Origin: an uncultured Tateyamaria sp.
GTDB taxonomy: Bacteria > Pseudomonadota > Alphaproteobacteria > Rhodobacterales > Rhodobacteraceae
NCBI RefSeq assembly: GCF_947503415.1
Contig: NZ_CANNDS010000003.1
Span: 124,001 to 188,000, forward strand
Direction: 5' to 3'
DNA: 64,000 nt
Shown here: positions 1-15,240 of the stretch, in pieces
How positions within the stretch are numbered: position 1 is the first letter of the stretch
How the letters are laid out: every line of letters begins with the position of its first letter
Position numbers and translations under genes: made by a program
The notes under the pieces: generated by a model
What the model saw: the letters and a program-made list of their open reading frames with translations, nothing else
Database searches by the model: none
Told to the model about the DNA's origin: nothing

Positions 1-1169
1 TCCGCGATGACGAAGGTGTCGAAAGCGATGCGGCCGCTCAAACTGCCGAGTACTGGTTCCGCACCGATGCAGACGCGCCGACGCGGCTGGATCCATGGAT
101 CCTGTGCACCTTGCCGGCAGAGGGCGAAGCGCATGTGTTTGGCCTCGACAACCCGCGCATCGTGTTCGCGACAAATGCCGTCGACCAACTCTTTGCGGCC
201 TACGGCAAAGAGTTGCGCGTGCGGCTCAAGGCGGCCTCGTTCAAGCAGGTTGAGGAACCGGGCCTTCCGCATCCCGTTCCAATCGATGCGGGCACGCTCG
301 AGAACGTGCAAGCGCATGTGTTATCGCCATTCGAAGCGGTGCTTCAGGACGTCATCAAGGAAACCGGTCCATGCGTGGATGTTGCTGGCGACCGGGTGCG
401 CCATTCCATGGTCAAACTGCCGATCCCGCTTGATCCGTACACTGACTACGTGATGGACATCGAATCTGTGGACATCGGCGCACCCGCTGAAACGGTGGGT
501 GATCGGGTCTACCGTCTGAACTTCTCGACCGGCCAATTCGGACTGACCGAGGACTTTGCAAGAGACGTGCAAGCCACATTGACCGAGGATCGTTTTGTAG
601 AAGCCGGAGCGCTGCAAGCGATTGGCAATGACCCACGGTTTGCTGGCCGGGAACTCGACAGTATCGTGCCGGGTCAGACATTGCTGACCACCATGGGCCC
701 CGAACTGGACGAGGAACTGGTGGGCGCGGGCCTTGAGCCAATGGATGTACCGGGCGCGGCCCGTGTGATCGTCTTCTGGGAACAGGCCAATCCGGGTGCC
801 GATCCACAACCGGCGGCCATTTTGCTGGATGCAAGTGAACCAATGCATCGGACACGGCCATTGCCGCAGGAAGTCACTGAGGAAGATCCCGATGGGATTG
901 CCACAACCCGCTGGCGGCTTGAGCCGACACCGTGGCTGTCGATCGCGGAAAGTGCTGCCTCCGACAATGTCGTGGACACGATACTGTTTTCGCCAGGTGC
1001 GCAGCGCGCGCTGATCACACTCAAGCCCGGATCACGAGGGCAAAGCCTGCGCATCAACATGGTCCGCAAGGCATTTTCGGAGCCGTACCTTGATGAAGGC
1101 CTTGGCGGCGATGTCGAGTTTGAAATCATTGCAACCGATCTGACCCGCGCACCGTGGGAAGAGGACTAG
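1..1169 (+). CDS. Large hypothetical protein, C-terminal part (5' end outside window)
   Basis: The reading frame is open from base 3 to the TAG at 1167-1169, so the true start lies upstream of the window. About 388 residues are visible. No family is recognised. The segment near residues 140-190, with a pattern like PYTDYVMDIESVD followed by RVYRLNFST, resembles the beta-sandwich modules of large surface or structural proteins, but that is only an impression. There is no membrane segment and almost no cysteine. The next gene begins 9 bases downstream behind a strong AGGAGGG site, so the two are almost certainly co-transcribed. Function unknown. Confidence 0.8.
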   Translation, partial: RDDEGVESDAAAQTAEYWFRTDADAPTRLDPWILCTLPAEGEAHVFGLDNPRIVFATNAVDQLFAAYGKELRVRLKAASFKQVEEPGLPHPVPIDAGTLENVQAHVLSPFEAVLQDVIKETGPCVDVAGDRVRHSMVKLPIPLDPYTDYVMDIESVDIGAPAETVGDRVYRLNFSTGQFGLTEDFARDVQATLTEDRFVEAGALQAIGNDPRFAGRELDSIVPGQTLLTTMGPELDEELVGAGLEPMDVPGAARVIVFWEQANPGADPQPAAILLDASEPMHRTRPLPQEVTEEDPDGIATTRWRLEPTPWLSIAESAASDNVVDTILFSPGAQRALITLKPGSRGQSLRINMVRKAFSEPYLDEGLGGDVEFEIIATDLTRAPWEED

Positions 1170-1178
1170 GAGGGACCG

Positions 1179-4100
1179 ATGAACCGTATTTTCAACCCTT
1201 ACCGGTTCCGTGGCCAAGGTGCGATGATCACTGGCGACGCGCTGTTTCGCCCGTTCGCAGACGAAAGCGGGGTGGTCACCAGCCCGTTCGGACCTTCGGC
1301 AGATGTGGCCGCAACTCATGAAACCCTGCGCACGACGCGCGGCGCACCCCAAGGTCTGGACCTGAAGGATTTTGGCAATCGGACGCTGGCAGTCTTTCTG
1401 CGCTGGCAGGTCAACCCGCGCATCGGACTGCCGTCCGAACCTTTCAAGGTTTGGCGCCGTGTCGCCTTTCCGCTTTTGCAGAATCCCGAACCGGTCCTGT
1501 CGCACAGGGTCTCGCTGCCCCCGCTTGGCACGGTGCATCGATTCAGTGAACCGGTGATGTCGATTACCGTGCGCATCAGAAGCCTTGGGCCCGCGCTTGG
1601 CGTGACCATCGTACCGCTGGTGAACGGGGTCGGGTTCGAAAACATGTTGGGATTTGAAACCCTGAACATCCCGGCCAACGGCGTGCGCACATACCGGTTC
1701 TATGCCCCGTTCATAACAGCTGTAATGATTGCGGGAGCAGATGGGCAGGAAGTGTCTGCCGTTGGCGAGGCATTGTCGCAGGCAGAAAAAATCCAAGGCT
1801 GGGAGCTGGTGGAAACGGTGGGTCTGCCAGTTGATCCCAACGAATTCAGTGACCTGGACGGACAGGAGCATGGCATAGATCAGGGCATGGTGGGTCAGGA
1901 AGTGCCGGCACGCGAAGCGGCCAAGCAACGCTTTTCCCGCGGGTTGAATCCGTTCGGATGGTACCCGGCTTTCCCAACGGGGGACATGGCACCGACATGG
2001 GAGTTGCCTGACGTCGACGGCATGATTGACGATGCCAACAAGACATTGCTCGAGATGCTGCACAGGGCGCTGCAGGCACCACCCAACCAGCAGGTCAATG
2101 TACTGGATCACCACGTCATCCGCCCACCCGAAAACGCGAATGGCGACAGCATGCCAGCCGAAGATGGCGAAGCGCGCGTGTCGTCGGTCAAGCTGATGCA
2201 GATGGCGGTTGCCACAGATCCCATGCAATCCGTCTTGATGGGGTTTGGCACCGGATATCCTTATGTCGATCTGGATCCGATCCACTTTGGGGAGCAGAGC
2301 TTTCTCGGTTCATCAGATATGGCCGACTATGATTTCATGGTCACTGGCTTGTGGAACAAGGGGTTGGATGGCGACAGTGAACCACGCGAATACGCAGCAC
2401 TCATTCCCCGCCCGCGCCGTGTCACCCGCCCGTTTCCTCCCGGTGACATGCGCGTTCATTTCCTTTCCCATCAACGACCCGCCGCCCCCGATGGAAGTTG
2501 GGTGGCCACCAGCCGCGCGAGTTGGGAGCAGTTGCCACTCGACAACATCAACGCGGTGTCCAGCTTTGCCTTCGGCCGGGCCGAGGGCGGTGTTGCAGGT
2601 CCTGCAACCCCGTTGATGGAGCCACGCCCCTCTGGCAAGGGCCTTATGCCGATCGGCAACAATGAAAACTTGCAAGACCCTGAATACCCACGGCAATCCG
2701 CATCGGACACCGGATTTGTCATCCCCAATTCACCCGGATCGGTAAGCGCGCAATACGGCGTGGCCACCCAAAATATCTTTGGCATCTGGAGCCCGTGGGG
2801 CACGCAACCCTTTTCAAGCACGCAACCAGAACCGGACACGGTCAACATCATCTCGGCTGAGATGCGACCGATCGATACGGGCAGTGGCACGGTGTGTCCC
2901 GCCGACTTGGTGGTGGAATTCGTCGTTGATTGGCGCGTCCGTTCCGTCAACAGGATCGATTTTGCCGGGCGTTTGTTCTCGGCGGACACACGCCACACGC
3001 CGGCACCCGGTGGATTACCCGGCGGATTGCAGAAAAGCATTGGTGGACCATCACAAAACGTCTTCATCGAATTTGCGGGTGACGTGCCATCACTGGTCGA
3101 CCCAAGTGTGCCGGGCTTGAATGGTGCTGCCAACGTCATCAGTCTGGATGTTCAGGGGGAGGCCGAAGTTGGAACGCCTGGATTTGCCAGCCAAGGTCAT
3201 GCGCGACGCTACCGTGTGACCATCCCCGGGTTTTCGCTGGATTATGCAGGCACCCCGCATGTGGGTCTTGCGATGCGCGCGCGCCTGCGAGAAGCCTTAC
3301 CACCGGGGCGCATAGGCAGTTTCGGTCCGCGCAGCAAATTGACATACGCGTCGGATCCCCGATCTCGTCCGACGCAAGTGATCGAAATAGTGCGGCTTGC
3401 CAGCTTGCCGGATGCCAAAGGTGAATGCCACGCTATCGTCGAATGGCAGTCCGTTGCGGGTGCGGATGGCTATATCCTTTACCAAAGTACGGAAACCCGG
3501 ATGCTGGCGAGCCGGGATTTGCCCGAGGCTTTGCCCGGCGTGACGCTCAGCACGCGCCTTGCAACCCTCAAAGCCGCATTTGAGGCATCGCCTGACAGGC
3601 GCGACTTCAATCGCGTGAACAAGACCTTGCTGACCGGAACCAATCTGGATGTTGCGCTGCCACGTGGATCGCAAGCCATTCATCTCTTTGTAGTTATTCC
3701 GATCAGCGCTGGCGGTGTCGAAGGTCCTTGGCCAAACGGACCGGATGCAAGCATGCAGTTGATCCCGTTCGTCGCCCCGCGCACCGCGACACCTGCACCC
3801 CCCACCATCGAGGCGCAGCGCATCGAAGAACCGGGTGGCTTTGCGGCACGCATACGTGTGGAAACCCGTCCCAGCTCTGGCGCACGCCCTGGCCGAATTG
3901 ATCTGTATCGTACCCGTGTCGCGGATGCGGCCAGACAGATCGACAGCATGGGGCCGCCGCTTGTTTCACTGACCGGCAGCACGGCAGATTGGATGGTCGG
4001 CACCGACACAAACGGGACCGAGACGTGGATTACCGATGTTGCAGGCGACGACGCGCCGACCGGGTCGTGGAAGCCGCAGTGGTATCGGGCCATCGCCTGG

Positions 4101-5147
4101 GGGCTTGATGACGCACAACGCGGTGTACGCAAGGGCCGGGGGCGACCTTCGCCCGCCGTTCCTGTGGTGATACCGCCCGCTGGCCCACCGCAACTGTCGC
4201 CCCCCGTTCTAACCTGGCCCGGTGGGGGCAATCTGGGTGATATCCTGTTGTCCACGGCGTCGAATGCGCCCATCGCACCGACCAGTTTGGGGCCGCACAC
4301 CTTGTCCGCCGAAGTGCGTCTGGAGGGGGAGCCGACGCTGCATTACTACACCATTGCGCCTGAGGCAGGCGATGATCCTCTAAACCCCGGTCAAAAGCTT
4401 CCAGGTGCGACGCCCTTGGACTTGATCCCGGAAGTGCCCGAGATGACGCAGACCGCTCTGTGGCGCGCGCCTAACGGCCTGGATCGCAACTATCGCCTCT
4501 TTATCCGCCGTCCAAACACAAGACCTGCTGGCAGCATCTTGTTGCGCATGACGGATCCGCTGGGACGGGTAACTGAACGCACCGTCAGTTTTGGCGAAGG
4601 TTCCATCATTCCGCTGCCGGATCTGAGTGATGTCGACCGGTTCAGCATCACGGGTCGGGGCACGGTGTATTCGGTGACCACCGACGCGCCTGTTGATGGC
4701 CCTCTCGAATATCGGGTTCGGATTTCCATCCGGCCTGCAGGCGGTGGCGGTATCTTGGGAACGGACAGGTTCCGTGATTTGCGTGAATTGCCAGACGCCT
4801 TCGATCGCTTTCGTCCGATACCGGACGAAACCCCGACCCCTGGCTTCCGTATCCCCCGACCATTCGAACCCCGTCCCGGTCCCATTATTGATCTGGGAAC
4901 CAATCGCCCGTCGTCACAATTCAAAACGGACGGGCGCAACCTTGTGTACGACGCACCGTTGGATGAAGTGCCTATCGGTGGACGGCCGACAGCATCCGGC
5001 GCGCAGGCTCCGCTTTATGTCGCCACCCGGCAAAAGATCGGTGCGCGCACCGGCATCACCGTATTGGCCCGTCAGGACATTCGCAGCATCACGTTCGAGA
5101 TCATCATGCCGGATGGGCGACGCGTCTCTAGTTCGGATCGGGATTGA
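1179..5147 (+). CDS. Giant hypothetical protein (1322 aa) with a fibronectin-III-like stretch
   Basis: A 1322-residue protein starting at an ATG 6 bases after AGGAGGG. It has no signal peptide, no clear membrane segment and very few cysteines. Residues about 750-860 read like a fibronectin type III module: a VEWQSVAGADGYILYQ core and a later strand ending in ISAGGVEGPWP. Proline- and glycine-rich beta segments follow, and a basic, proline-rich stretch lies near residues 1190-1250. No catalytic motif is recognised. It overlaps the possible start region of the next gene, so it is the middle gene of a three-gene operon. A structural or surface role is inference only; membership of a contractile-injection or tail-like particle cannot be shown from this window. 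Confidence 0.85.
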   Translation: MNRIFNPYRFRGQGAMITGDALFRPFADESGVVTSPFGPSADVAATHETLRTTRGAPQGLDLKDFGNRTLAVFLRWQVNPRIGLPSEPFKVWRRVAFPLLQNPEPVLSHRVSLPPLGTVHRFSEPVMSITVRIRSLGPALGVTIVPLVNGVGFENMLGFETLNIPANGVRTYRFYAPFITAVMIAGADGQEVSAVGEALSQAEKIQGWELVETVGLPVDPNEFSDLDGQEHGIDQGMVGQEVPAREAAKQRFSRGLNPFGWYPAFPTGDMAPTWELPDVDGMIDDANKTLLEMLHRALQAPPNQQVNVLDHHVIRPPENANGDSMPAEDGEARVSSVKLMQMAVATDPMQSVLMGFGTGYPYVDLDPIHFGEQSFLGSSDMADYDFMVTGLWNKGLDGDSEPREYAALIPRPRRVTRPFPPGDMRVHFLSHQRPAAPDGSWVATSRASWEQLPLDNINAVSSFAFGRAEGGVAGPATPLMEPRPSGKGLMPIGNNENLQDPEYPRQSASDTGFVIPNSPGSVSAQYGVATQNIFGIWSPWGTQPFSSTQPEPDTVNIISAEMRPIDTGSGTVCPADLVVEFVVDWRVRSVNRIDFAGRLFSADTRHTPAPGGLPGGLQKSIGGPSQNVFIEFAGDVPSLVDPSVPGLNGAANVISLDVQGEAEVGTPGFASQGHARRYRVTIPGFSLDYAGTPHVGLAMRARLREALPPGRIGSFGPRSKLTYASDPRSRPTQVIEIVRLASLPDAKGECHAIVEWQSVAGADGYILYQSTETRMLASRDLPEALPGVTLSTRLATLKAAFEASPDRRDFNRVNKTLLTGTNLDVALPRGSQAIHLFVVIPISAGGVEGPWPNGPDASMQLIPFVAPRTATPAPPTIEAQRIEEPGGFAARIRVETRPSSGARPGRIDLYRTRVADAARQIDSMGPPLVSLTGSTADWMVGTDTNGTETWITDVAGDDAPTGSWKPQWYRAIAWGLDDAQRGVRKGRGRPSPAVPVVIPPAGPPQLSPPVLTWPGGGNLGDILLSTASNAPIAPTSLGPHTLSAEVRLEGEPTLHYYTIAPEAGDDPLNPGQKLPGATPLDLIPEVPEMTQTALWRAPNGLDRNYRLFIRRPNTRPAGSILLRMTDPLGRVTERTVSFGEGSIIPLPDLSDVDRFSITGRGTVYSVTTDAPVDGPLEYRVRISIRPAGGGGILGTDRFRDLRELPDAFDRFRPIPDETPTPGFRIPRPFEPRPGPIIDLGTNRPSSQFKTDGRNLVYDAPLDEVPIGGRPTASGAQAPLYVATRQKIGARTGITVLARQDIRSITFEIIMPDGRRVSSSDRD

Positions 5148-5152
5148 TCGCC

Positions 5153-8100
5153 ATGACACAACTGAATGTCTTCACCCTGACCCCTCAAGCCGCCGCACAG
5201 GCGCTGCAAGACAATGGCCTCGATGCGCTTGGGTTGACCATGCCGCACTTGTCCAACGCTTGGGGTGCCGCCGATCCCAGCTTTGACAGCTCCACGTTGC
5301 GACTGACACCGTCCGGCAACGCGCTGGCACCTTTTCGCGGAACATTGGAATATCTGGATCAGGGCCATGAGTTTCGCGGTGTCACCGGCGCTGGGATAAC
5401 TGGTCCCGTTGCTGCCTTTCGCCTTCACCCGCAGGCTGTCACACGGCTGTCGAGCCTTATGGCGCGTTACGCCGTGGCACCTGCACCCCATCATCGGCCC
5501 GTTCCGGAAACGCTGGTGTTCACTGGCGCAGTGCCTGCACCTGATCGCTCGCCGCAGACCTATGAACCCGGCGAAAGCCTGGGCCGGAACGAGCCGATGA
5601 GCTTTCATGACAGCCGTGGTCTGATTATCGATCCCGTGGCGGTCGCAGCGTTGTTTGATGACTTGATCACCGCATTCCCCGCTCTGGATTTTTCGGGCGG
5701 CGCAGGCACCGGAGGGGCAGGGGGCGTGGGCAGTATTGCGGGTCTGGCTACCGGAGTTGTGGCGCAGGTTGTCGATTTGCATGGCAACCCCTTCGTGGCG
5801 CCACTTGGCGATGTCGGTATCGAAAAGCAGGACGGGGCAGATACGCAGACCGGAACGCCTGACGGGTCGGGCTTGGTGACGCTTGGCACAGGCGAGGTGC
5901 TGGCCGCGACCGGCACGGGCGCAGACACCCGGATCCGCCTTGGTTGGGCCACGGGTGGCACGATGGCAAGCGGGCCATTGGCGCAACCCGGATTGCCGGG
6001 AGGCGTGACGTTGCCCCGCCAATTCCTGCGCGCCTTTGCCGTTGACCTTAATTGGCATTTGCGTGGCAACCGTACAACAAGTCCGGTGGTCGGTGTACCT
6101 GCCGAGGACGGTGACATGCCGGATGACCTCAAACCGCAGGTGCGGACCGAGGTGATTGTGGATTACGCCGTTGACGGCCCGGATTTGATGGCGCTGTCGA
6201 ACGCCGTTCTGGCCCGGATGGACGGCGCAACAGGCAACCCCTTGATGTTTGCGGCGGCCCCGATCATTGCGGATGGCGTGGCGGCGCCGCTTGCACCGGG
6301 GGCACCTGCACGGTGGCCCGCATTTCCGGCCCCGGCGGGCGCCGGTGTCTTCGGAGCCAACCCGGCCCCATTGGTCGGGGCGACCGCGTCTTGGACTGCA
6401 GATGAGGATGTGGTTGTCACTCTTGCCGCCAACGCGGTGCCTGATGGATGTTCAGTGCGCATCTACAACCAACGGTTCATCTCCATCCCTGCAATCGGCG
6501 AAACGCCGTCTTTCAAACGGGGGGACGGCGGCGCGTCTATCGCCGTGGCGGGTCAACCGACCCTGATCCTGGTGCACAATCCGATGGGGCTGGAACCGGG
6601 CGACCCGAAACCAGACCCGGCAACGCTTGTCTTCGATATGGTCGTGACCCCACGTGCGCAAAATCGCCGTTTGTTTGCCGCACGAACCCTTCCCATTGCA
6701 GCGGGTCCTGCCGCTGTTCCTCCGGACGCTTTTGCGCCAGTGCTCGACCGCATGGCCGCTGTACCGGACACGGTGAAATCGGTCGCTCCCGTGCCGCTTT
6801 TTGGCACCGATGATGGCCCTGCCGATGGCGGAGCGGGCACGCCAGCTGACGCAGCGCGCGCGCTGGCGTCCGAAACGGTGCCGCGCACCGGGCCGCGCTT
6901 GCCCACCATGGGACGTCTGGAGGCCATCGTGGTCAGCGGTATCGGGTCTGCCGCGATCAGCGAAGGGCTTGACTGGGACGGTGTCCTGAGCGGCACGTCC
7001 TGGAGCCGTGATGCGATGTCGGCCAATCACGCGCAAGGCAATCCCGGCAACCCGCCGGGGCCTGATACGCACAGCGCAGGCGTGCGCGTTGAGGGGGCGC
7101 TGGCTTACGACCTCGCCCGTCATGCCGTTCGGCGTGTCCAGCCATTCATTCCACTGCCTGGCGGTCCACCCCCCGCTCAGGCGCCGGGGTGGCTTGCGAT
7201 GTCGGGTGGCGACAACATGAACCCGCCGGAACGGGCAGGGGCGCCGCCAGCCGATGCAACCTCGTCAGGTGTATTGCTGCAATCCATCGCTGCCGTGGCC
7301 GAAACGCCGGAACTGTCGCTTTTGCCGCCGGGCAATCCTTTGGATTCTGCGGCGCCGATCGACGTGCAAACAGTGATCAATGATGTGGCGAGCGCCATTG
7401 GCATTCCGGCACCGATGATCGACGTCACAAACGGCAATCGCTTGCTGAACGAATTGCGACGAGAGTACGAATTGTCGGTCAACGGCGCACGTGATGCGCT
7501 CTGGTCATTGGCGCGCGCCTTTCATCAAGCGGAAGAGCTTGTGTACATCGAAACCGCCGGGCTTGCGCGCACGCTCCACGCCGGGGCAGGCGCGGGAGCC
7601 ATCAGCATAGATCTGATGCAAATACTTGCAGATCGATTGGCGGTACAACCACGGCTGAAGGTCATTATCTGCACCCCTCGCGAGACCGACTTTGTACCAC
7701 CCCCGTTTGTGCGTGCCGCGATCCAATTGCGGAATGAGGCGCTGACAGCGCTGACGTCCGGTGCCATGGAGCGTGTGGTGGCCTTTCACCCCGGGGGCTT
7801 CCCGGGGCGTGCGGCCAAACTGCCCGGAACGACAGTGATTGTGGACGACGTTTATTCCCTGACAGGGGCCACTCATCTGCGGCGTCGCGGGGTCAGTTTT
7901 GACGGTAGCGCAGCGGTGGCATCGGTTGATCACTCCATCGCTCAGGGCTACAGCGCAAAGGTGCGCAACCAGCGGGTTCTGTCTTTGGCTGCAAGGATGG
8001 GTATTGCGCAGCGCGATCCCATGGGATTGCCAACGTCAGACTTCATCCGGTTGCAACGGCCGTCTGCTGCGTTCTCATTGGTCCATGACGTCGTCGAACA

Positions 8101-8239
8101 GGGCGGTCTTGGCCGTGTTGAGCCAAATTGGGAGGGGCCCAGCGATGCCACTGTCATTCCCCAAACCGCAGATGTGGCGGACCCCGATGGAAGTGATGGG
8201 GCAAATCTGACCCTGTTCCTGGCGGCTTTGCTCAGCTGA
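5153..8239 (+). CDS. Giant hypothetical protein (1028 aa) with a degenerate phospholipase-D-like C-terminus
   Basis: I chose the ATG at 5153, five bases after the upstream stop; an in-frame TTG at 5144 would overlap that stop. The N-terminal 190 residues are unrecognised and end in a glycine-rich linker (about 180-200). The C-terminal part resembles one half of the PLD/cardiolipin-synthase fold: VYIETAGL near residue 797, a KVIICTP strand near 840, and VIVDDVYSLTGATHLRRRG near 893-911, where active enzymes have HxKxxxxDxxxxxxGSxN. The Asp is present, but the His and Lys positions are Pro and Thr. An active lipase or nuclease is therefore unlikely. It is the last gene of the operon; the stop lies just before a convergent TRAP permease gene. 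Confidence 0.8.
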   Translation: MTQLNVFTLTPQAAAQALQDNGLDALGLTMPHLSNAWGAADPSFDSSTLRLTPSGNALAPFRGTLEYLDQGHEFRGVTGAGITGPVAAFRLHPQAVTRLSSLMARYAVAPAPHHRPVPETLVFTGAVPAPDRSPQTYEPGESLGRNEPMSFHDSRGLIIDPVAVAALFDDLITAFPALDFSGGAGTGGAGGVGSIAGLATGVVAQVVDLHGNPFVAPLGDVGIEKQDGADTQTGTPDGSGLVTLGTGEVLAATGTGADTRIRLGWATGGTMASGPLAQPGLPGGVTLPRQFLRAFAVDLNWHLRGNRTTSPVVGVPAEDGDMPDDLKPQVRTEVIVDYAVDGPDLMALSNAVLARMDGATGNPLMFAAAPIIADGVAAPLAPGAPARWPAFPAPAGAGVFGANPAPLVGATASWTADEDVVVTLAANAVPDGCSVRIYNQRFISIPAIGETPSFKRGDGGASIAVAGQPTLILVHNPMGLEPGDPKPDPATLVFDMVVTPRAQNRRLFAARTLPIAAGPAAVPPDAFAPVLDRMAAVPDTVKSVAPVPLFGTDDGPADGGAGTPADAARALASETVPRTGPRLPTMGRLEAIVVSGIGSAAISEGLDWDGVLSGTSWSRDAMSANHAQGNPGNPPGPDTHSAGVRVEGALAYDLARHAVRRVQPFIPLPGGPPPAQAPGWLAMSGGDNMNPPERAGAPPADATSSGVLLQSIAAVAETPELSLLPPGNPLDSAAPIDVQTVINDVASAIGIPAPMIDVTNGNRLLNELRREYELSVNGARDALWSLARAFHQAEELVYIETAGLARTLHAGAGAGAISIDLMQILADRLAVQPRLKVIICTPRETDFVPPPFVRAAIQLRNEALTALTSGAMERVVAFHPGGFPGRAAKLPGTTVIVDDVYSLTGATHLRRRGVSFDGSAAVASVDHSIAQGYSAKVRNQRVLSLAARMGIAQRDPMGLPTSDFIRLQRPSAAFSLVHDVVEQGGLGRVEPNWEGPSDATVIPQTADVADPDGSDGANLTLFLAALLS

Positions 8240-14448: not shown

Positions 14449-15240
14449 ATGAAAACTCTGATGAAACTGCTCTTGGCCGTAAGTCTGATGCTCGGCCTGG
14501 GATTGCGGTCGGCGGACGCGGAACCAGCGACAGTGCGCGTTCTGGCAGACCAGGCAGTTTTGGTGCACCGGGTCACGAAATCGGTTTGTATGGTGCTGAT
14601 CGGGGCTGAGACCCCGGTACATGTGCAGGACATTTCCCATTCGACCGAACAGCTTGTTCGACTGTCGCATGACTTGGACACAAGAGCAGATGTGTCAAAG
14701 GCACTACTTGCCGATGTCGATACGCTCACAAAGTCGGCACGCCAAATTGCAGCCGGTGATCTGCACACCGTTCCACTGACTCTTATATTGAGGATCAATC
14801 CGGATCTGGCCGACGCGTTCGATCAGATGAAGGTCGACGCGCCTTCTACGATCAGCGCTAAAAACCGCGGCTCATTCATGTTGGTTCAAGATTTGCGCGT
14901 TGTCTCGCAGGCATTTCAGCGTGATCTGTGCCTGGCGCTCACCGGTCTTGCACCTGATGGTGCAAACGAGGTTTTGGCCCGAAAAATTGCGTTCTTTGCC
15001 GTGTCGATGGACAGGTTGGTGACAGGCCGTGCGAAAGATGGGTTGGTCGCCGCACCGAACATCCACATCAAGATCACGCTTGGAAAAGTGGCGGGCAAGT
15101 GGAAGACGCTCGAACCCATTCTATCGGCAGCAGCGGCCGGACAACCGATTGATCCGCGTGATGCGCAGCTTGCTTCGGTCCTTGGGGACGCAATCCTCAA
15201 GAATCTCGACGACATAACGGATCGCTTTCTGGCGTTGTAG
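14449..15240 (+). CDS. Secreted protein with two PilJ-like (type IV pili MCP N-terminal) repeats
   Basis: A 263-residue protein. ATG at 14449 is preferred over a TTG at 14443 because it directly opens a signal peptide (MKTLMKLLLAVSLMLGLGL, cleavage after ADA). The mature protein is helical. Two segments, around residues 30-80 and 140-195, share a pattern (VLADQAVLVHRVTKSVCMVL and VQDLRVVSQAFQRDLCLALTG) like the PilJ/NarX-type four-helix sensory domain, here without any transducer. It would be a free periplasmic protein. The role is unknown; nitrate or small-ligand binding is only suggested by the fold family. Confidence 0.7.
   Translation: MKTLMKLLLAVSLMLGLGLRSADAEPATVRVLADQAVLVHRVTKSVCMVLIGAETPVHVQDISHSTEQLVRLSHDLDTRADVSKALLADVDTLTKSARQIAAGDLHTVPLTLILRINPDLADAFDQMKVDAPSTISAKNRGSFMLVQDLRVVSQAFQRDLCLALTGLAPDGANEVLARKIAFFAVSMDRLVTGRAKDGLVAAPNIHIKITLGKVAGKWKTLEPILSAAAAGQPIDPRDAQLASVLGDAILKNLDDITDRFLAL

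Follow-up and report, generated by a model that had tools for sequence, protein, structure and literature searches.

A three-gene operon of giant proteins in Tateyamaria with a DUF6603-like core and a putative inactive phospholipase D half

Do three giant genes that follow one another on the same strand work as one unit, and to what kind of system would such a unit belong? The question is raised by the first 8,239 nucleotides of a 64,000-nucleotide stretch of DNA, hereafter the window, from an uncultured Tateyamaria sp. (RefSeq assembly GCF_947503415.1, contig NZ_CANNDS010000003.1; G000:C3:124001-188000), where frames A, B, and C lie consecutively on the plus strand. A first-pass annotation made from the sequence took their products for one large structural or surface assembly of proteins without a nameable family, possibly belonging to a larger cluster that the start of the window truncates. 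Our analysis indicates that A, B, and C are real genes under strong purifying selection whose products probably act jointly and may form a single large complex. We regard it as fairly likely that they are one inherited functional unit, most plausibly the subunits of a single large assembly around a DUF6603-like core in A. The features on which the argument draws are the following:

1..1169, plus strand: final part of gene A, coding for residues 2069-2456 out of 2456, in a frame open at the window start with 388 residues visible
1179..5147, plus strand: gene B, an open frame of 1322 residues, with an N-terminal motif LRW..LG.P..PF.VWRR common to its relatives
5153..8239, plus strand: gene C, an open frame of 1028 residues from its ATG
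7436..8005, plus strand: putative phospholipase D (PLD)-like half at the C-terminal end of C, from profile and alignment
3384..3764, plus strand: stretch of B that looks fibronectin III-like by eye, without profile support
Residues 535-660 of A: OmpA-like segment, from a profile match in the PDB

The argument for one unit begins with gene order. Among the 15 loci with an A-type gene that were examined for order, ten carry A, B, and C contiguously and in the same order. Five of these are the window, G149 (L008, Tateyamaria omphalii), G167 (L009), G165 (L024), and the Rhizobium tropici plasmid pRtrCIAT899c (L006). The others are G550 and G551, which are Bryobacterales and therefore Acidobacteriota, and G724, G714, and G718, sampled members of the class of G550. 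Gene A is split over two contigs in G550 and G551, and C was recognized by reading in G550 and by alignment in the other four. The three gene trees have the same outline, ((G718, Paracoccus where present), (Rhizobium, (Acidobacteriota, Tateyamaria))), with full support in the A tree and with open forks and long branches in those of B and C. One further genome of the genus, G160, appears to have lost most of the operon. What is left is an open frame of 506 codons (L025:4260-5780, the same as L011:9968-11488) in which residues 1-384 of A are fused in frame with residues 924-1016 of C, as one deletion that began in A and ended in C could have produced.

Selection has acted on each gene. The proteins of T. 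omphalii, a member of the same genus, and of L009 are 84-88% identical to those of the window, and ratios of nonsynonymous to synonymous substitution rates (dN/dS) are 0.042 for A and 0.044 for B against T. omphalii, and 0.064, 0.066, and 0.035 for A, B, and C against G165. The core of A alone gives 0.016 and 0.018 in the same two comparisons. These ratios are rough because dS is 0.9-2.5, and that of C against T. omphalii is undefined because synonymous sites are saturated.

Several loci weigh against so strict a grouping. First, plasmid pAMI4 of Paracoccus aminophilus has A and a relative of B, with no C seen. Second, in G638 and G680 the A-like gene is accompanied by a gene that resembles B only weakly (E 2.9e-5 and 8e-4). 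hhalign gives the G638 protein 84-88% over about 35 residues, where it has the N-terminal motif of B, and gives the G680 protein 2.9% (a further gene in G680, cut by the contig end, was left out of the comparison). In G170, the A-like gene is flanked by two other giant genes; at L023:3757-19003 three giant genes stand in a row (1181, 2009, and more than 1881 residues), the middle one being the relative of A. By reading, no fourth gene common to the A-type loci was seen.

That C can be absent, and that no homology was seen among A, B, and C, would fit three separate proteins with unrelated jobs, together only through co-transcription and co-transfer. Against this stand the persistence of the gene order across two deeply diverged phyla and the broad agreement of the trees, although both could also result from co-transfer alone. 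We consider this the least probable of the explanations weighed here. The proposal that the three genes form one unit is supported by the kept order, the trees, and the G160 remnant, and the checks made so far on what might overturn it, searches of four family libraries and a survey of co-conservation, left it standing.

The unit is accessory, being gained and lost, present on megaplasmids, and spread over two phyla. A profile of C finds five of 20 genomes of the genus, the window's own and the G160 remnant included, and the operon is intact in four. Across 149 genomes of the family, one per genus, protein C matches two: the genome of the window, and another in which the match is weak, partial, and interrupted by a stop. 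The A core profile finds two of 385 genomes of the class (the window's own and G170), a wider A profile finds only the window's own among 398 genomes of the phylum, and A occurs in six of 299 genomes of the class of G550, with G550 included. The records of R. tropici and P. aminophilus are absent from these genome samples and come from a plasmid collection, whose 72,556 records hold A twice and B and C once each. The megaplasmid that bears the A-B pair, pAMI4, is described as dispensable (PMC3925955).

In the trees, rooted at the midpoint, Tateyamaria groups with Bryobacterales and the relatives from their class, not with Rhizobium, and Paracoccus groups with G718 in the A and B trees. Because the phyla interleave in the gene trees, horizontal movement of the operon between phyla is suggested, with old paralogy followed by losses as the alternative. 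Within the genus, G150, G151, and G155 have the operon's flanking gene beside carB, and no A, B, or C was found in the 14-16 kb read there. Between carB and the site of the operon lies a small gene (window 14449-15237; L009:24686-25498) that has matches in 13 of the 20 genus genomes, two of them weak, with and without A-B-C. By reading, its product looks secreted.

An operon that is patchily distributed, moves laterally, and encodes an inactive nuclease-like domain could also be an anti-phage or inter-bacterial conflict system. Its scatter within the genus and the near-confinement of C to the window's own genome in the family sample would fit this, as would some neighbors of canonical DUF6603 operons, to which A is related below: trypsin-like proteins lie beside three of these operons (one over the Pfam cut-off), and one operon has a CHAT gene at a distance of about 5 kb and a CATRA gene in its vicinity. 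PADLOC, however, returns no family for A, B, or C at E ≤ 1, the neighbors in the window look metabolic by reading, and no effector with intact catalytic residues was recognized. We think a conflict role unlikely and retain the reading of one large assembly.

The description of three successive genes in one direction, with gaps of 9 bases (A-B) and 5 bases (B-C), holds, and 6.2 kb of upstream DNA completes the operon as proteins of 2456 (A), 1322 (B), and 1028 (C) residues, or about 14.4 kb of coding sequence. Gene A begins at G000:C3:117799 (L003:1799) with the ATG of MPFDL, a start that is kept among relatives and is preceded by AAAAGG at ten bases. An alternative ATG further upstream would give a protein of 2482 residues. 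AGGAGG precedes the ATG of B. In 20 kb of upstream DNA read by eye, a LysR-type regulator and ordinary metabolic genes come before A, and no tail, sheath, baseplate, or secretion genes were seen. The operon thus consists of three genes and is not cut from a visible tail or secretion cluster; only A itself extends upstream, and the bigger cluster supposed earlier is not borne out. By reading, a transporter gene follows C on the opposite strand. The neighborhood gives no pointer to a substrate.

In Pfam, NCBIfam, PHROGs, and PADLOC, protein A has sub-threshold matches only. Its orthologue in G714, in contrast, passes the Pfam cut-off for DUF6603 (PF20248) with 41.8 bits vs 27 (33.3 in a six-frame search), and that of G724 falls just below it at 25.3 bits (21.9 in a six-frame search). 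The A-like protein of G170 matches DUF6603 at E 0.084. When trimmed cores of ten A-type proteins were compared with those of five DUF6603 proteins by hhalign, four settings gave probabilities of 94.3-98.0% over 404-560 columns (96.2% over 404 in one), and the three remotest A-type proteins alone gave 34.8-92.5%. Controls were low for the reversed alignment (0.2), for ten column shuffles (at most 0.6), and for windows taken from four other families, namely B, C, and two kinds of partner (at most 1.1); nine of ten block shuffles gave 0.5-4.8 and the tenth 55.6.

Several results pull the other way. The A of the window has no DUF6603 match in Pfam at E ≤ 1, nor do the A proteins of R. tropici, G638, and G680 have a Pfam match to the family. 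The untrimmed comparison of A with DUF6603 found no link, which appeared with trimmed cores and more relatives. Structure prediction of the core (T. omphalii sequence, from three sequences only) was poor, with a predicted local distance difference test (pLDDT) score of 29. In the window's genome, no DUF6603 was detected at E ≤ 0.001, and the A core profile retrieved nothing convincing from the PDB (best E 0.26). On balance, profile comparison identifies the core of A as a divergent relative of DUF6603, with the window's copy below the cut-off and so not filed as a formal member. The claim that no family could be named accordingly falls for A and stands for B and C. The same core has a strong beta-type hydrophobic periodicity (z 6.0), compared with z values of -0.4 to 2.0 in the rest of A and in B and C.

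Protein A also contains the OmpA-like segment listed above, whose best PDB chain is 6u83 (E 7e-4; 0.0023 for the single stretch). The other 22 chains listed have E 0.036-1.8, and most are named as outer membrane or Pal-type proteins. In Pfam the segment stays below the cut-off of 27.2 bits, with 16.8 bits in the window and 18.9 in R. tropici. Inspection of the N-termini by eye (no predictor was run) found no signal peptide in A, B, or C, and cysteines are few (11, 2, and 2), as the first-pass annotation had said. In all three proteins, hydrophobicity over 19 residues peaks in the interior of the chain (Kyte-Doolittle 1.90, 1.45, and 1.75 for A, B, and C), and windows above 1.6 number eight in A, none in B, and one in C.

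These features bear on whether the operon encodes an adhesin, a tail-like body, or another surface structure that would leave the cell by an unknown route. The size of the proteins and the OmpA-like segment would suit such a structure, a Paracoccus relative of A is annotated as an outer membrane protein, and genes next to the G152 and G571 DUF6603 operons resemble tail-fiber genes by reading. Pfam, however, assigns those neighbors no tail family, and the lack of signal peptides by inspection and of visible secretion genes upstream speaks against export. In PHROGs, A hits two weak unnamed families (E 0.023 and 0.29), whereas neither B nor C hits any. Phage genomes gave no match to A, and no relative of A or of DUF6603 was confirmed in viral contigs, where short patterns only were used and B and C were not searched. 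A surface structure is, in our judgment, improbable to the same degree as a conflict system, and an assembly of the three proteins, in the cytoplasm or at a surface that would be reached without a signal peptide, remains our preferred reading.

For protein C, Pfam, NCBIfam, PHROGs, and PADLOC are all silent at E ≤ 1, and a six-sequence profile of its C-terminal end places plant PLD alpha 1 (6kz8) first in the PDB with E 0.0094. When this end is aligned by hhalign with the second halves of E. coli ClsA and ClsB, the probability is 69.3% over 117 columns that run through the catalytic motif, compared with at most 1.9 for 20 column shuffles, 0.2 for the reversed alignment, and at most 0.3 for six unrelated proteins. 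In the register of the PLD alpha 1 profile, the catalytic His position is occupied by P, R, R, R, K, and C in the six sequences (P in the window), the catalytic Lys position is Thr in all six, and the following Asp is kept, while the Asn of GSAN is H or S. A gapped alignment instead places a Lys of the window's C at the catalytic His site. The best reading of the C-terminal end, short of proof, is a pseudo-PLD module with its catalytic His and Lys replaced, and the earlier view of a PLD-like half that has lost both residues gains weak sequence support.

A number of results count against the PLD assignment. The match to PLD alpha 1 is a sum of stretches of which none passes alone, and the next matches are phage capsid chains (E 0.16-0.2) and enoyl-CoA hydratase (0.28). 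None of the six sequences has a Pfam PLD match. Comparison with the first Cls halves gives only 0.3, and that with a Paenibacillus PLDc_2 protein 0.2, an uninformative value given that PLDc_2 likewise scores 0.4 against the Cls halves. A structure prediction of the half, from three sequences only, was poor (pLDDT 42.5), and we base no conclusion on the fold search with this model, which returned nothing at E ≤ 0.001 and no PLD among the best 50 matches listed. A second intended PLD positive control matched only through overlapping letters and is uninformative. Pfam searches with relatives of C gave stray sub-threshold matches alone, to Acetyltransf_6 (best 0.04) and DUF6222 (0.073).

Protein B matches nothing at E ≤ 1 in the four libraries, and its profile finds no PDB chain at that threshold. 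The fibronectin III-like stretch noted in it earlier is a likeness by eye that we could not substantiate: Pfam is empty at E ≤ 1, and a profile of eight relatives yields one unrelated chain (E 1.3). A relationship of B to the large partners of canonical DUF6603 operons was likewise rejected, no link being found and the likeness of the short motif of B to the HLHW...NRWL motif of those partners lacking statistical support.

Together, we hypothesize that A would serve as the core of the assembly through its DUF6603-related middle, with amphipathic beta-strand periodicity, and its OmpA-like segment, and that B would be a long partner protein. By analogy with known pseudo-PLD proteins, the putatively dead PLD half of C would probably attach to a partner protein, a lipid, or nucleic acid and leave it uncut, and the dead PLD and OmpA-like parts may act as docking modules. 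About 14.4 kb of selected coding sequence is spent on these three proteins of unknown function, and the arrangement recurs in another phylum. Through the DUF6603 link, that family acquires a compact representative of only three genes in two cultivable strains, T. omphalii and R. tropici CIAT 899. With culturable hosts, natural losses, and a relative on the dispensable megaplasmid pAMI4, the function is therefore testable.

DUF6603 is mentioned in none of the open-licence papers searched. Canonical DUF6603 operons occur in another genome of the genus (G152, L022), in the class of G550 (L060-L066), and in Paenibacillus and Streptomyces (L026, L027). They contain a DUF6603 gene, an LPW-motif protein, a giant of 1000-1900 residues, and further genes, with at least two partner types by reading and kelch proteins by Pfam in two. 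The longest DUF6603 protein among those examined has about 3360 residues (L064:2655-12749, G654). Trypsin-like proteins beside these operons were mentioned above. Downstream of the Paenibacillus operon lies a PLDc_2 protein (L026:25063-26139; 27.4 bits, cut-off 27) that has HxK and not the full HxKxxxxD; about 9 kb before the operon, at L026:475-5470, are two genes annotated as phage baseplate assembly protein V and a DUF4280 gene.

The OmpA-like segment of A matches the profile of OmpA-like C-terminal domains and keeps their motif Arg invariant, and it differs in falling below the Pfam cut-off and in belonging to a protein without a signal peptide by inspection. The residue that we take to be the usual peptidoglycan-binding Asp is Ser in A. 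The end of C aligns with the second HKD half of the PLD superfamily (ClsA, ClsB, 6kz8) in element order and in the VDD..L.G motif. Unlike those proteins, C has a single half, a weak match, and replaced catalytic residues in all six sequences, and it lacks the HxKxxxxD with His and Lys of PLD enzymes. In the FAM83 pseudo-PLD proteins of vertebrates, an inactive PLD fold is used as a protein scaffold; C is not a member of that family and is likened to it by working mode alone. Canonical DUF6603 operons differ from A-B-C in having partners without seen homology to B and C, and in that the window's A has an OmpA-like segment and no Pfam match. A more speculative extension, which we rate as a long shot, would make A-B-C and the canonical operons branches of one widespread and undescribed class of giant-protein machine. 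In it, a soluble amphipathic beta structure of A would shape a groove or barrel that takes up a hydrophobic ligand or a membrane, and the dead PLD module of C would be its lid or dock. The two kinds of operon share a core homologous to that of A and several giant genes without known function, and A-B-C, in which B and C fall outside the four libraries, represents a new branch within this uncharacterized kind of DUF6603 giant-gene operon.

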